DNA of 60,860 nucleotides from positions 1-60,860 of the forward strand of contig CALVCO010000004.1 of NCBI GenBank assembly GCA_944326095.1. The letters are read 5' to 3'. The notes under the pieces are model-generated. The model was not told where the DNA came from. It did not search any database and worked only from the letters and a program-made list of their open reading frames with translations. This DNA is from an uncultured Erysipelotrichaceae bacterium (GTDB taxonomy: Bacteria > Bacillota_I > Bacilli_A > Erysipelotrichales > Erysipelotrichaceae). The translations under genes and the position numbers were made by a program. Below, in pieces: positions 27,240 to 32,955 of this stretch. Position 1 is the stretch's first letter; each line of letters starts with the position of its first letter.

Positions 27240-27713
27240 ATGGCAATGGAAGATAAAATTTATGTCACTGCGGAAGGACTGAAAGATTTACAAGATGAAT
27301 ATAATAATTTAGTTCATGTAGTACGTGATGAAGTAAAAGAAGAATTAAGAGCAGCACGTGCACAAGGAGACTTGTCTGAAAACGCGGATTATGATGCGGC
27401 AAGAGATCGACAAGCAAAAGTTGAAGCACGAATTGCTGATCTAGAAGTAATGTTGCAAAATTATGAACTGATCGATACCAAAAAAGGCGGCAGCCGTACA
27501 GTTAGAATTGGTTCGACGGTGACTTTGGAATTTTTAGATCTACATAGTGAGCATGAATATACGATCGTTGGAACGACTGAAGCTGATCCACTTAATGGAA
27601 AGTTATCAAATGAAACACCATTAGCTGAAGCTATTTTGGATAAAAAAGTTGGATCAACAGTAACTGTTAATGTTGATAAACCTTATGAAGTAAAGATTAA
27701 AAGCGTAAAATAA
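27240..27713 (+). CDS. greA: Transcription elongation factor GreA
   Basis: GreA rescues backtracked RNA polymerase by stimulating transcript cleavage. The N-terminal coiled coil carries the acidic tip in GDLSENADYDAARDRQ. The C-terminal FKBP-like domain has EADPLNGKLSNETPLAEAIL. Length is 157, normal. AAGGAG precedes the ATG. It ends at a strong terminator that separates the conserved cluster from the three-gene insert. Confidence 0.97.
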   Translation: MAMEDKIYVTAEGLKDLQDEYNNLVHVVRDEVKEELRAARAQGDLSENADYDAARDRQAKVEARIADLEVMLQNYELIDTKKGGSRTVRIGSTVTLEFLDLHSEHEYTIVGTTEADPLNGKLSNETPLAEAILDKKVGSTVTVNVDKPYEVKIKSVK

Positions 27714-27727
27714 CGCTTTTTCTTTTT
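27698..27727 (+). terminator. Terminator of greA
   Basis: AAAAGCG pairs with CGCTTTT around TAAAATAA, followed by a T-run. The stem overlaps the greA stop codon. Confidence 0.8.
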
Positions 27728-27804: not shown

Positions 27805-28350
27805 ATGATTAAATATCTTGGTGTAATAGGTTTTTGTTTATTTTTTATTTATGATTATAATCAAGTACGATGGAATAATGGTGTTTTGAAAAAATTTTTC
27901 CTTATCGGACTTATCTTAATCAGCATAGCAACTATTTATTATTGCACATTACCCTTGAAAAGTATCTTAGGTATAATAATTGCCTTATTTGGATTAGCTT
28001 TGACAGTGTATGTTTTATTTTTTGCGCTAGATTTTAAAGATACTTATATAAATGATAAGTTTAAAGTTTATGATAAAGGAGTTTACTCTTTATGCCGTCA
28101 TCCTGGATATTGGAGCTTGCTTATCATGTATCTAGGATTGCTTGTAGCTTTTCAAGATGTGGAATGGCTGTGGATCACGATAATATATAATCTATTAAAT
28201 TTGATATATATCGTTTTTCAAGATAAGTATACTTTTACCATAATATTTGAAGATTATTGTGAATATAAAACATATGTACCTTTTTTGATACCTACCTTAG
28301 CTAGTATTAATTCATGTTTAAATTATTTTAGGGAAAAAAATGAAATTTGA
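27805..28350 (+). CDS. ICMT/PEMT-like membrane methyltransferase family protein
   Basis: The protein has about five membrane helices and, near the C-terminus, the SAM-binding signature of the isoprenylcysteine carboxyl methyltransferase/phospholipid methyltransferase family: LCRHPGYWSLL followed by IIFEDYCEYKTYVPFLIPT. Such enzymes methylate carboxylates or amines of lipophilic substrates at the membrane. I prefer ATG 27805 (181 residues, after AAGAGG) over ATG 27766. Its end overlaps the GH3 gene by 11 bases. With its neighbours it forms a compact three-gene unit. The substrate is unknown. Confidence 0.7.
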   Translation: MIKYLGVIGFCLFFIYDYNQVRWNNGVLKKFFLIGLILISIATIYYCTLPLKSILGIIIALFGLALTVYVLFFALDFKDTYINDKFKVYDKGVYSLCRHPGYWSLLIMYLGLLVAFQDVEWLWITIIYNLLNLIYIVFQDKYTFTIIFEDYCEYKTYVPFLIPTLASINSCLNYFREKNEI

Positions 28351-29941
28351 GGAAAAATTAAGAACTTTAGGCAAAAAAGAAGTATATGATGAATATTGTT
28401 CTTTTTTAGATCTAAATCTAGAGCAATATATGCAGATACAAAATAGCTTGCTTAAAGAACAGATTGCTCTATGGCAAGATACTAAATTGGCTCAATCAAT
28501 TTTAAAAGGCAAAAAGATTGAGTCTTTTAGTGATTTTAAAAAAGTTATTCCTCTTACGACATATGAAGATTATGCAGACATACTTTTAAAAAGAGATGAT
28601 AATTATCTTCCAAGTCCTGCTTCTCTTTGGATCGAAACAACTTGGGAAGGTGGTAATCATCCAGTAAAGGTAGCGCCATATAACCGTGCAATGCTTGAAA
28701 CCTTTTTCACCAATGTGTGTGCTTGTTTTTTAATCGCTACAGGCAAGCAAAGATATGATTTTGACATAAAATCAAGTTATCATATGCTTTATGGATTGGC
28801 ACCATTACCTTATGCTACTGGTCTTTTACCAATCAGCTTAGAAAATCAGATTGGAATCAAATTTTTGCCTGATGTTGAAACAGCAAATTCATTAAGTTTT
28901 AGCGAACGAAATAAATTAGGATTTAAGCAAGGGTTATTTGAAGGCATCGAATACTTTTTTGGTTTAGGAAGCGTAACATATTACATTTCAAAAAGTTTAG
29001 ATAAAATGTCTAGCCAACAAAGTTCATTTAATTATAGTCAATTTTTTAAGAATCCTAGAAGAGCAGCACGGTTGTTGAAAGGTATAAACCGTGCAAAAAA
29101 AGAAAATCGTGGACTATTGCCTAAAGATCTTTTTGACTTGAAAGGCTTTGTCGTAGCGGGAACAGATAATGAATTATATAAAGATGATTTAGAAAAATTA
29201 TGGGGTGTAAGACCACTAGAAATTTTTGCAGGTACAGAACCAACCTTATTAGGAACCGAAACCTATAGTCGTAAAGGTTTGGTATTTTTCCCAGATAGTT
29301 GTTATTTAGAATTTATCCCTGAAGAAGAAACTATAAAATATAAAAATGATCCTAGTCATGAATACACCACATATACGATAGATGAAGTATGTGAAAATTG
29401 TAATTACGAATTAATTATCAGTGTATTAAAAGGCGGAGCATTCATGCGCTATCGAGTAGGAGATATCTATCGCTGTGTCGGTTTAAAAGATAAAGATGAC
29501 AATATAAATCTTCCGATCTTTAAATTTATTGATAGGACAAAAGATGTTATTGATATTGCTGGATTTACCCGCATTACTAAAAACAGTATCGATGATGTTA
29601 TAAAATTATCAAAATTAGATATTAAAGATTATATTGCTTGCAAGGAAATAGATAACAATGATCGGCCATTTTTACATATGTATGTGGAGATGAGCGATGA
29701 TGCAATGTATGGCGATGCAATTACCATTGAAGTTTTAAAAGATCATCTAACTGCATATTTTAAATATTTTGATTCTGATTATGCTGATCTTAAAAAGATC
29801 TTAGGCATAGATCCATTGCAGATTACGATATTGAAACGTCGCTCTTTAAGCGATTATCCTTATATGATCGATAGAATAAACCCATCAAAAAGTGAGATGG
29901 TGAAGTTTAAGAGATATATTTATGAAAGTGCAGGATATTAA
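28340..29941 (+). CDS. GH3 auxin-responsive promoter family acyl-adenylating enzyme
   Basis: GH3 enzymes activate a small carboxylic acid as acyl-AMP and join it to an amino acid. Matches include FSDFKKVIPLTTYEDYA, FAGTEPTLLGTET (the Y-x-S-S-E-G-type motif), MRYRVGDIYRCVGL (the Y-R-x-G-D motif), and IFKFIDRTKDVIDIAGF. The first nucleotide motif, usually S-G-T-T/S-G-x-P-K, is altered to ETTWEGGNHPVKV, so ATP binding may be unusual. Length 533 is like bacterial members. It overlaps genes on both sides, the last through TAATG. Acid and acceptor cannot be predicted. Confidence 0.75.
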   Translation: MKFEEKLRTLGKKEVYDEYCSFLDLNLEQYMQIQNSLLKEQIALWQDTKLAQSILKGKKIESFSDFKKVIPLTTYEDYADILLKRDDNYLPSPASLWIETTWEGGNHPVKVAPYNRAMLETFFTNVCACFLIATGKQRYDFDIKSSYHMLYGLAPLPYATGLLPISLENQIGIKFLPDVETANSLSFSERNKLGFKQGLFEGIEYFFGLGSVTYYISKSLDKMSSQQSSFNYSQFFKNPRRAARLLKGINRAKKENRGLLPKDLFDLKGFVVAGTDNELYKDDLEKLWGVRPLEIFAGTEPTLLGTETYSRKGLVFFPDSCYLEFIPEEETIKYKNDPSHEYTTYTIDEVCENCNYELIISVLKGGAFMRYRVGDIYRCVGLKDKDDNINLPIFKFIDRTKDVIDIAGFTRITKNSIDDVIKLSKLDIKDYIACKEIDNNDRPFLHMYVEMSDDAMYGDAITIEVLKDHLTAYFKYFDSDYADLKKILGIDPLQITILKRRSLSDYPYMIDRINPSKSEMVKFKRYIYESAGY

Positions 29942-32451
29942 TGATGGATAGTTATTTATATGTACCAGCAATATCTGTAGCTTTTTTGTCATATCTTCTA
30001 ATATCATTCATGGCAAGCAAGAAGAACCATTTGATCAAGGCATATCTTGCCGTTTTGATTGCGATGATCATGTGGACAGGAGGATCGTTCTTGATGAGGA
30101 TCCAATTTTATCCTGGAATGGAGCTATGGTTTGATATATCGATCGCTGGGCTGCTTGGTGTATGCTCAACGATATATACATTCGTAAAGATCGCAACGGT
30201 AAAAAAAGTAGATAAGATGTGCATGGTCTGGTATATGATCATGATCATAATCGCTATTATCAACGCATTGAGCGGGTGGTTTTTAAGTGTGCCATCAATC
30301 GTTGAAAACGGTTCACATATTAAATTTATTTATGAGGTTACCTTTAGAACATTAATTCTATATGGGGTAGCATTTTTGTGCTTTTTGAACGTATGTTATA
30401 ATTTATGGAACGCAATGAAGAAAAACATTGAATCAGTACATGATATGTATCCAATGTTCATTGGTGTAATCTTATTATTGATCGGACATATACTATATTT
30501 TTTACCGATCTTCAATGGTTTTCCAATCGATATGCTTAGCGGTATCTTTTCGGCAATTTGTTTGTATTATATGGTATATAAAAGACGGATGTTCAAACTT
30601 ACCTTGTTAGCTGGAAGAGGAAGCTTGACGTTTGCTTCTGGATTGATCACTTTTTTTATCTTCTATATTTTGATCGATCCTTTAGAGAGGATCTTTGATA
30701 CAGCATATGGAACCAATACGACATATGATTCATTATACATATCAATATTGTTTGTCATTGTTTTAGCAGTAGTCTTTAGCTTTTTTAAATTTTTTACTAA
30801 TTCGATCTTTGTAAAGAAAGAAATAAAACAAAATGAAGTCTTGAATGAATACCTTTTGGATGTAACCCAAAGCTTAGATATTAAGCAAGTCATAGATATA
30901 ACATTCAAAAAAATCAAAGAAGTGATCGATGTTGATACGATCATCATAGCATTGCATAATGACCAGAAACAGTGTTATGAATTATATTCCGATAAAGATT
31001 ATTTTAGTTATCCAAACATAAGTGAAGCGAGCCCGATTTTTAGCTATTTATCGCAAGTTAATGGTTGTGTAAGCTATAATGATTTTAATCGTAGCGTGTT
31101 TGCTAGATCTATCTGGCAAAATGATAAAGATATCCTTGATAAGCTTAATATCAGTTTGATGATGCCATTAAAAGACGAAGAACTATTTGGGGTCATCATG
31201 CTACCGCAAAAAAAGAAACCTTACCATTATGATGAGACATTGTTCATATCATCATTAGCTAATAGCGCATCAATAGCCATAAAAAATAGTAAGCTTTATA
31301 ACAAAGTATATCAGGAATCAATTGGAGACGATCTAACTAATACCTATAATCGTAAATATTTTTATGACATCCTAAATCAAAACTTTTTAAGCTATAAGTC
31401 ATTCTTGACCTTGATGTATATCAGCGTAGATGATTTTAGAATCTATAATCAGCTATATGGTAAGCAAGAAGGTGATGAAGCATTAAAAAATATCGCAGAA
31501 GTTATCAAGCTATTATCTGGGCAAAAGAGCATATTGTGCCGGATCCAAGGAAAGATTTTTGCGTTGATACTTCCAGAATATAATATTCTAAGCGCTAGGA
31601 AATTAGGAGAAAATATTTGTAAACAAGTAATAAATATTAATAAGCATGAAGAAAACAATAAGAAAGTTCTAACGGTATCCATTGGCATAAGCAGCATACC
31701 GCTAAATTCAACAACGGTAAAGGAACTATGTGCAAATGCCGATCAAGCATTATATGATGCCAAGAAGGCAGGGAAAAATTGTGTCAATATTTTTAGCTTA
31801 GAATCATATACCAAAACAGACGATCAACCACGAAAGAAATTTGATACATCGGTATATAATGAATATAGTGGAACGATCTGTGCTTTACAGGCAGCAATCG
31901 ATGCGAAAGATCATTATACTTTTTCACACAGCAATAATGTGGCGTATTATGCAACGAAGCTAGCAGAAGGCTATGGATTAAGCGATGAGATTGTGGAGAT
32001 TGTTAGAGAAGCAGCTTTATTACACGATATTGGAAAAATTGGGGTTCCAGAAAATATCTTAAATAAGCCAGGAAGGTTAACAAGTGAAGAATATGAGACG
32101 ATGAAGTCGCATGTTGAAAACAGCGTTAGCATCATCAAGCATCTGCCATCATTGGATTATGTTGTACCAGCAGTAATATCTCATCACGAAAGATGGGATG
32201 GTAATGGTTATCCTCGCCGTCTAGCCAAGGAAGATATTCCATTAACTGGTAGGATCTTATGCATTGCGGATTGTTTTGATGCAATGACTAGTGCTCGTTG
32301 TTATAAGCAGCCATATCCTTTGGAAATGGCGTTAAATGAGCTGATCTTGCAGGAAAACAAACAATTTGATCCAAAATTAGTTGAATTGTTTGTTGCCATG
32401 GTTAAAAATGGGCATATTGTTTTACAAGATACTAAAATTAATAAAGGATAA
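29941..32451 (+). CDS. Multi-TM/GAF/degenerate GGDEF/HD-GYP signalling protein
   Basis: Seven or eight membrane helices fill about residues 5-290, resembling the 7TM histidine-kinase-type sensor module. A GAF domain follows (about 300-445). Then comes a GGDEF-like domain (about 450-605) whose active site reads RIQGKIFALI, so diguanylate cyclase activity is very unlikely. The C-terminal HD-GYP domain (about 640-825) looks complete: LLHDIGKIGVP, SHHERWDGNGYP, ADCFDAMTSARCYK. It should hydrolyse c-di-GMP or a related dinucleotide. It begins inside the GH3 stop codon. Base composition is richer in GC and GATC than the core genes around it. Confidence 0.88.
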   Translation: MMDSYLYVPAISVAFLSYLLISFMASKKNHLIKAYLAVLIAMIMWTGGSFLMRIQFYPGMELWFDISIAGLLGVCSTIYTFVKIATVKKVDKMCMVWYMIMIIIAIINALSGWFLSVPSIVENGSHIKFIYEVTFRTLILYGVAFLCFLNVCYNLWNAMKKNIESVHDMYPMFIGVILLLIGHILYFLPIFNGFPIDMLSGIFSAICLYYMVYKRRMFKLTLLAGRGSLTFASGLITFFIFYILIDPLERIFDTAYGTNTTYDSLYISILFVIVLAVVFSFFKFFTNSIFVKKEIKQNEVLNEYLLDVTQSLDIKQVIDITFKKIKEVIDVDTIIIALHNDQKQCYELYSDKDYFSYPNISEASPIFSYLSQVNGCVSYNDFNRSVFARSIWQNDKDILDKLNISLMMPLKDEELFGVIMLPQKKKPYHYDETLFISSLANSASIAIKNSKLYNKVYQESIGDDLTNTYNRKYFYDILNQNFLSYKSFLTLMYISVDDFRIYNQLYGKQEGDEALKNIAEVIKLLSGQKSILCRIQGKIFALILPEYNILSARKLGENICKQVININKHEENNKKVLTVSIGISSIPLNSTTVKELCANADQALYDAKKAGKNCVNIFSLESYTKTDDQPRKKFDTSVYNEYSGTICALQAAIDAKDHYTFSHSNNVAYYATKLAEGYGLSDEIVEIVREAALLHDIGKIGVPENILNKPGRLTSEEYETMKSHVENSVSIIKHLPSLDYVVPAVISHHERWDGNGYPRRLAKEDIPLTGRILCIADCFDAMTSARCYKQPYPLEMALNELILQENKQFDPKLVELFVAMVKNGHIVLQDTKINKG

Positions 32452-32487
32452 TATGTGCTTTAAACATATATATGATTGGTGATAAAT

Positions 32488-32955
32488 ATGTTTAAAGCTT
32501 TTTTTATTATTATTGCATTTACTTGTTTTATTTTTGTTGATCATAAAATAATAGATATCAAACAAATGGAAGATGCAACTATTACAGTTGAAGTAAAAGG
32601 TAATGGAGCTAAAAATGGTCTATATTCTTTAGAAAAATATAGTACTATTAATGATTTAATAAAAATAGTAGAAATGAAAGAGGATGCCGATTTATCAAGT
32701 TATAATTTACAACAACCTTTAAAAAGTATGGATATTATTACCATAAATTTAATTTCAGAATTTCCTAAAGTATCTATAAATAGTGCTAATTTAGATGAAC
32801 TTTGTACTTTGGATGGAATTAAAGAAAAGACAGCACAGAAAATAATAGATTATCGTAATAATAATGGACCTTTTCAATCTTTAGAAGAATTGATGGAAGT
32901 GCCAGGTATTGGTGAAGCTAAATACAATAAGCTTAAAGATAAAATCTGTCTTTAA
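32488..32955 (+). CDS. comEA: ComEA-type DNA-uptake receptor
   Basis: ComEA binds double-stranded DNA outside the membrane during transformation. An N-terminal membrane anchor (residues 2-18) is followed by an SLBB-like domain and the helix-hairpin-helix pair: INSANLDELCTLDGIKEKTA, then LEELMEVPGIGEAKYNKLKD. I use ATG 32488, after GGTGATAAAT; the TTG at 32476 is a less likely alternative. The comEC gene begins within its 3' end. Confidence 0.92.
   Translation: MFKAFFIIIAFTCFIFVDHKIIDIKQMEDATITVEVKGNGAKNGLYSLEKYSTINDLIKIVEMKEDADLSSYNLQQPLKSMDIITINLISEFPKVSINSANLDELCTLDGIKEKTAQKIIDYRNNNGPFQSLEELMEVPGIGEAKYNKLKDKICL

Follow-up and report, generated by a model that had tools for sequence, protein, structure and literature searches.

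What would lead a bacterium to encode a membrane methyltransferase, a GH3 acyl-adenylating enzyme and an HD-GYP protein with a membrane sensor in three overlapping genes? The question is raised by a 60,860-nucleotide stretch of DNA from an uncultured Erysipelotrichaceae bacterium (contig CALVCO010000004.1 of assembly GCA_944326095.1; this whole stretch is called the window below), in which genes 1, 2 and 3 encode these proteins one after the other on the plus strand. A preliminary description of the window, made from its sequence alone, had proposed that the two enzymes make or inactivate a small acid-derived signal that the third protein reads. We find that the three genes form a real, conserved and widespread unit, and that gene 3 very probably encodes a sensor that belongs with the two enzymes. 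The overlap of genes 1 and 2 spans 11 bases (28340-28350), genes 2 and 3 have TAATG in common (29939-29943), and the coordinates and overlaps of the preliminary description were thus confirmed. It had also deduced a fixed stoichiometry from the overlaps; this deduction was not borne out, and what the overlaps suggest instead is translational coupling.

We used the GH3 protein as the query against one genome per species, which gave 53 loci (some are near-duplicates, hence fewer than 53 independent events), and assigned their neighbors with profiles of each of the three families. Nearly all of these loci belong to Bacillota, with Erysipelotrichaceae, Lachnospiraceae, Oscillospiraceae/Ruminococcaceae, Syntrophomonadaceae, Desulfotomaculaceae and Peptococcaceae represented; less typical hosts are a Mycoplasmatota strain and one metagenome-assembled genome of Fermentimonas. 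The cassette of this Fermentimonas (Bacteroidota) genome (L031) lies on a 3.5-kb contig and reflects either mis-binning or transfer. The sensor gene is located 3' of the GH3 gene on the same strand in 49 of the 49 loci whose contig extends far enough (the contig stops within or just after the GH3 gene in L054, L064, L066 and L067, which were not counted). Upstream DNA is long enough to look for the methyltransferase in 50 loci, and in 47 of them its gene is located 5' of GH3. With automated start choice, the gap from stop to start is at most 40 nucleotides between GH3 and gene 3 in 47/49 cases and between gene 1 and GH3 in 39/47. Recurrence of the same neighborhood in other genomes was a check set beforehand, and the three genes are indeed neighbors in Erysipelotrichales, Lachnospiraceae, Desulfotomaculaceae, Syntrophomonadaceae and other families. 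Across 38 loci, pairwise identity in one of the three proteins is correlated with that in the others (r = 0.82-0.89, compared with at most 0.17 for GH3 and gene 3 when labels were permuted), a correlation that shared species history alone could explain.

The association also holds when the search starts from the sensor. With a strong match defined as E < 1e-190 for GH3 and E < 1e-40 for the sensor, 392 genomes of the window's phylum contained a strong GH3 in 11 cases and a strong sensor in 13. All 11 GH3 genes adjoin a sensor gene, and the methyltransferase was present in 10 of the 10 GH3-sensor pairs examined (genome G153 was left out); the two sensors without enzymes are those of G048 (locus L102) and G269 (locus L103). 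Among 393 genomes of the class that contains Hungatella hathewayi, six of six strong sensors, including that of Hungatella, have the methyltransferase and GH3 genes directly upstream. In both samples together, 17 of 19 strong sensors stand directly behind a GH3 gene, with the methyltransferase in all 16 cases checked. The distribution is patchy, as illustrated by a sample of relatives in which the GH3 gene was found in 5/5 other genomes of the window's genus versus 4/30 from the rest of the family. The surroundings of the cassette vary among loci, the setting between greA and comEA being that of the window. Together, the patchy distribution and the differing surroundings suggest that the cassette is gained and lost as one unit. 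Chance adjacency was rejected since synteny holds in both search directions, conservation of a common chromosome segment around the cassette because the surroundings elsewhere differ from greA/comEA, and plasmid spread because there was no match in PLSDB.

The clearest indication that the N-terminal part of gene 3 serves as an input domain linked to the enzymes is a swap of output, in which the enzymes and the sensor stay and the output changes. Two loci (L030 and L065) retain the methyltransferase, GH3 and sensor, and their third gene ends in HisKA-HATPase-receiver domains in place of GGDEF-HD-GYP. The N-terminal regions of these two hybrid histidine kinases match the Pfam profile HisKA_7TM (2.5e-8 and 3.3e-8). 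This profile (PF16927) matches 27 of 35 sensor relatives, the best with 9e-16; the window's own protein has no match at E 0.01, and a search of the PDB provided no sequence relatives of the sensor. An AlphaFold2 (AF2) model of residues 1-460, with a predicted local distance difference test score (pLDDT) of 85.5, contains seven helices, two further long helices (hence nine N-terminal helices) and a GAF domain, and its first 219 residues align to folds of the G protein-coupled receptor (GPCR) type with Z scores of 15-17. Lys and Arg are enriched in loops 1-2, 3-4, 5-6 and 7-8 (the positive-inside pattern), and the N-terminus is therefore predicted to be outside. In this predicted topology, the outer face holds most of the invariant or near-invariant residues (M52, P58, W63, G112, P195 and D197), of which M52, P58 and W63 are invariant and P195 and D197 nearly so. 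The orphan sensors (L102:5293-7779 and L103:9180-11690), which have the sensor-GGDEF-HD-GYP architecture and no enzymes, retain W45, M52, W63, F81 and D197, differ at P58 and G112, and are possibly listeners.

Two further loci carry unusual forms of the sensor. At L177:1724-4822, a distant relative of 670 amino acids is followed by a separate 358-amino acid HD-GYP protein, a layout reminiscent of RpfC/RpfG. The latter pair serves quorum sensing of the diffusible signal factor (DSF) type, with RpfG being an HD-GYP response regulator. The sensor gene at L176:5321-7911 is present in two overlapping frames, resulting from either a real frameshift or an assembly error.

With respect to output, gene 3 has Pfam matches to GAF (weak), GGDEF (4e-31) and HD_5 (2.9e-39). 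The preliminary description was correct about the membrane methyltransferase, the GH3 enzyme and the transmembrane (TM), GAF and HD-GYP parts of the third protein, but it had overlooked the GGDEF domain between GAF and HD-GYP and also the changed motif I of the GH3 enzyme. No complete GGDEF-HD-GYP member has lost its HD or GYP motif; in the window these motifs read LLHDIGK and SHHERWDGNGYPR, with the HD, HHE and GYP elements all present. The GGDEF domain is more variable. Desulfotomaculaceae, Syntrophomonadaceae and families f9 and f19 have an intact GGEEF, and the motif (RYGGEEF when intact) decays via YSGKEF-type forms to RIQGKIF in the window. Given RIQGKIF at the active site, an active diguanylate cyclase was rejected for the window. 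These motifs suggest that the ancestral gene 3 protein was probably bifunctional and that the window's protein is likely a phosphodiesterase, whose substrate would be cyclic di-GMP (c-di-GMP), with another cyclic dinucleotide being possible. Other c-di-GMP genes occur in the window's genome and count in favor of such an output: one encodes a GGDEF protein whose motif is AGDEF, one a GGDEF-EAL protein and one a further HD_5 protein.

Gene 2 matches GH3_M (4.9e-12) and the GH3 N-terminal domain (1.1e-6) in Pfam, both above cut-off, and at E 0.01 these profiles match 38/38 and 36/38 of its relatives, respectively. The AF2 model (pLDDT 85.7, with the lowest confidence at the motif I loop) is most similar to plant GH3s, namely JAR1 (4epl; Z 27.7 over 477 residues, root-mean-square deviation 4.4), PBS3 (4epm; Z 27.5) and GH3.15 (Z about 27.5). 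PaaK-type ligases rank nearly level with them in the structural comparison, and a sequence-profile search of the PDB returned plant GH3s only. JAR1 and PBS3 thus share the fold of gene 2 (Z about 27 over 470 residues) as well as motifs II and III, but the identity is 16-18%, and in gene 2 motif I is changed and the C-terminal domain is shorter. Motif I of gene 2 is W-I-E-T-T-W-E-G-G-N-H-P-V-K (residues 97-110), and every cassette member examined has TTW[E/K/R]G(x)n-K where the canonical motif is S/T-S-G-T-S/T-x-G-x-x-K; T100, T101 and W102 are invariant. In a profile alignment with a canonical GH3 (L106), the TTW loop falls at motif I and is two residues longer. Ordinary bacterial GH3s from the same collections (L105 and L106) retain a TSG-type motif I, and the motif I serine of OlsH, a GH3 enzyme of Singulisphaera acidiphila, is essential (PMC12493201). 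The change in motif I, set against these two observations, therefore marks the cassette enzymes as a distinct GH3 subfamily with an altered phosphate loop. Motif II (G298/T299/E300) and motif III (RYR.GD, residues 370-375) are retained in nearly all members and K110 is conserved, and we think because of this conservation that the enzymes still adenylate. RYRAGY replaces RYR.GD in motif III of three loci from termite guts.

Gene 1 matches PEMT (1.4e-8; 35.5 bits versus a cut-off of 25) and DUF1295 (6e-8) in Pfam, and its match to ICMT (E 0.006; 17.4 bits) lies under the cut-off of 24 bits. Among the 35 members of its family (METHYLTRANSFERASE), PEMT matches 20, ICMT 11 (at E 0.01) and DUF1295 five; RHPG, F157, Y164 and Y167 are invariant and the C-terminal D/E..F..Y..Y motif is conserved. 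The sole methyltransferase match in the PDB was Ma-ICMT (4a2n; E 1.2e-4). The profile, the RHP motif and the C-terminal acidic/Tyr motif place gene 1 among the ICMT/PEMT membrane methyltransferases. In termite-gut Peptococcaceae, a protein of 440-490 amino acids that is PilM-like by eye is encoded directly upstream of GH3 (L059:2215-3540, L061:6660-7958 and L068:6380-7849). This 440-amino acid protein was considered as a replacement enzyme for the methyltransferase and rejected, given its PilM-like appearance and a weak PilM_2 match in one of the loci.

Our favored interpretation, to which we assign a probability of roughly 45%, is that the three genes constitute one functional, horizontally patchy cassette that makes and senses a small lipophilic molecule. 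We infer the substrate, product, ligand and direction of regulation as follows. With ATP, GH3 would adenylate a carboxylic acid (a fatty acid or another acyl acid being the probable choice) and then couple it to an amine, for instance an amino acid. The membrane methyltransferase would then cap the GH3 product, most likely as a methyl ester on the free carboxylate, to give a neutral, membrane-permeable acyl-amino-acid ester. The ligand of gene 3 would be the capped product or something closely related to it, bound in a membrane pocket of nine helices that opens toward the outer leaflet, and the resulting state would be relayed through GAF to the output. In most lineages the output would be c-di-GMP turnover by GGDEF synthesis and HD-GYP hydrolysis (in the window, HD-GYP hydrolysis only), and in at least two lineages it would be a phosphorelay. 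The make-and-read proposal of the preliminary description is supported in part: the unit is real and conserved, and the nine-TM, HisKA_7TM-related region and the hybrid histidine kinase swap argue for its sensor and output.

Several points weigh against this mechanism. PEMT, the phospholipid N-methyltransferase profile, outscores ICMT for gene 1, and because of this preference N-methylation is as possible as carboxyl methylation. The methyltransferase is missing in the three termite-gut Peptococcaceae loci, so methylation is not universal. The GH3 enzyme lacks the canonical S-S-G-T-S in motif I, which leaves its adenylation chemistry uncertain. Little weight can be placed on GPCR-like Z scores for helical bundles, which are suggestive only. 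Finally, a search of the window's genome for PilZ proteins and both c-di-GMP riboswitch families found none, and both were rejected as downstream receptors there.

Both a signal and a lipid are candidate products of the cassette. The alternative that survives best, which we nevertheless consider unlikely, is membrane-lipid remodeling, in which GH3 would form a lipid of the N-acyl amino acid type, whose head group would be N-methylated by the PEMT-like enzyme, and gene 3 would monitor the state of the envelope or its lipids and adjust c-di-GMP, the product itself being structural rather than a signal between cells. OlsH, the only characterized bacterial GH3 of this kind that we found, produces N-acyl-ornithine; the neighboring gene encodes the N-methyltransferase OlsG, and the operon gives an N-methylated ornithine lipid (PMC12493201). 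An established role outside of signaling, which the preliminary description had named as a possible objection to its proposal, is therefore partly in play: a bacterial GH3 with a methyltransferase gene in its operon makes a membrane lipid. The OlsH-OlsG-OlsI operon resembles the cassette in having a bacterial GH3 beside a methyltransferase and in making an N-acyl amino acid, but OlsH has the canonical motif I TSGTTQGATK in place of the TTW form, and the operon as described includes the O-acyltransferase OlsI and no sensor and comes from another phylum with another gene order (PMC12493201). The preference of Pfam for PEMT, the additional class I methyltransferase beside the cassette in six loci, and the flippase-like or O-antigen-ligase-like gene that adjoins some loci (the last two described below) are consistent with a lipid product. 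However, no sensor is mentioned for the S. acidiphila operon, whereas the sensor of the cassette is nearly invariant and its output domain swaps while the enzymes stay, and clustering of the neighbors revealed no OlsI-type O-acyltransferase among the recurrent ones, with no direct search made.

That the cassette inactivates or detoxifies an external acid (aromatic, fatty, or a hormone derived from the host or community) appears improbable. GH3 would conjugate the acid, the methyltransferase would cap it and gene 3 would sense and report the free acid. Plant GH3s inactivate hormones by conjugation (PMC11253546), and many of the source organisms come from acid-rich anaerobic niches (gut, digesters, sediments), but it would be unusual for one acid to be capped twice and no acid transporter recurs in the neighborhood clustering. 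It is very doubtful that the GH3-like enzyme has lost ATP chemistry and serves the sensor as a subunit that binds a ligand or acts as another kind of transferase. Its invariant TTW.G loop, two residues longer than the canonical one and modeled with the lowest confidence, might imply this, but motifs II (GTE) and III (RYR.GD) in nearly all members, K110, and the strong conservation of the altered loop itself suggest a working active site.

The layout of the locus is given in the table below. For gene 1, the family alignment favors the ATG at 27805 over 27766. The gene upstream of the unit is greA (recognized by eye) and a comEA-like HHH protein is encoded downstream of gene 3 (Pfam search), and these flanks are as first described. 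The downstream hairpin would act as a terminator and boundary, with its T-run falling within the comEA reading frame. A promoter scan gave a signal no higher than that of shuffles, and no RNA control element was found at Rfam gathering scores in eight loci.

Features of the three-gene locus and its putative boundaries (window coordinates)
Feature	Coordinates	Strand	Basis
Gene 1, ICMT/PEMT-type integral-membrane methyltransferase (putative)	27805..28350	+	Pfam PEMT 1.4e-8; longest open reading frame from 27766
Gene 2, GH3-fold acyl-adenylating enzyme (putative), 533 amino acids	28340..29941	+	Pfam GH3/GH3_M; AF2 model
Gene 3, nine-TM sensor-GAF-degenerate GGDEF-HD-GYP, 836 amino acids	29941..32451	+	Pfam; AF2 model of residues 1-460
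Gene 3 sensor region, residues 1-309, GPCR-like seven-TM bundle plus two helices	29941..30867	+	AF2 model, fold match, topology
Gene 3 GGDEF domain, residues 463-613, motif degenerate	31327..31779	+	Pfam match position; alignment of relatives
Gene 3 HD-GYP domain, HD and HHE..DG.GYP motifs intact	31891..32379	+	Motif alignment
Hairpin resembling an intrinsic terminator, 3' of greA, bounding the unit upstream	27699..27720	+	z -5.4
Strong hairpin then T-run, putative downstream boundary, overlaps comEA start	32455..32504	+	z -5.3

Other genes accompany the cassette in some of the loci. In family f9 (L082:10009-12020, with matching genes in L083 and L087 and the kinase also in L084), a divergent operon adjoining the cassette encodes a butyrate kinase (TIGR02707, above cut-off) and a phosphate butyryltransferase-type protein; it could supply acyl groups, or may be local synteny only. 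A class I S-adenosylmethionine methyltransferase is encoded beside or inside the cassette in six loci of the Desulfotomaculaceae/Syntrophomonadaceae type (L033:6567-7241, L035:3795-4427, L040, L042, L052 and L064). Polysaccharide flippase-like and beta-lactamase-family genes lie upstream of the cassette in L055:4729-7301, and an O-antigen-ligase-like gene lies downstream in L030:12553-13902 and L065:12545-13888.

Known signaling systems resemble parts of the cassette that makes and senses a small molecule, compared here by description rather than homology. The GH3 enzyme OlsH, the PhcB-PhcS pair and LuxN serve as precedents for our favored interpretation. In Ralstonia, the methyltransferase PhcB makes an acyl methyl ester (3-hydroxymyristic or 3-hydroxypalmitic acid methyl ester, 3-OH MAME/PAME) that is read by the membrane kinase PhcS (PMC8578825, PMC11960443); this system has no GH3 and its output is a two-component cascade. 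LuxM-LuxN of Vibrio pairs the synthase of an acyl-amino-acid derivative with a nine-TM hybrid kinase receptor, as in L030/L065, and is a lead only. LuxN has nine predicted TM helices, the number also found in the AF2 model of gene 3, and an acyl-homoserine-lactone ligand (PMC5007282), but the synthase chemistry as described is unrelated to GH3 and the output of the cassette is mostly GGDEF-HD-GYP. In DSF-type systems a phosphodiesterase lowers c-di-GMP in response to a signal of the fatty-acid type, and in RpfG this phosphodiesterase is an HD-GYP domain; the synthase chemistry is different, and RpfG is a response regulator. RpfR, which couples the fatty-acid-type signal BDSF to c-di-GMP phosphodiesterase output (PMC8846402), uses PAS binding and an EAL domain. 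Our literature search, which covered mainly open-access papers, found nothing linking GH3 with HD-GYP, c-di-GMP or ICMT/isoprenylcysteine, and the three-gene combination may be an undescribed chemical signaling system that feeds c-di-GMP.

The inputs of most c-di-GMP proteins are still unassigned, and a 2022 review found direct evidence for only (at least) two receptors of quorum-sensing molecules in c-di-GMP networks (PMC8846402). Here a candidate synthase adjoins a candidate receptor, which makes the input of the HD-GYP protein directly testable. The carriers include gut commensals such as Hungatella hathewayi as well as organisms of digesters, sediments and termite guts. Peptides are the more familiar signals of Gram-positive anaerobes. 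If the product is secreted as an N-acyl amino acid ester, it would add a class of small-molecule autoinducer in these organisms and extend the functions of bacterial GH3 enzymes past membrane lipids. It is conceivable, if somewhat unlikely, that anaerobic Bacillota use GH3-based chemical communication more broadly, with an acyl-amino-acid ester as a lactone-like autoinducer, a nine-TM receptor with direct c-di-GMP output, variants with kinase output, and orphan receptors that would listen where no synthase is present.

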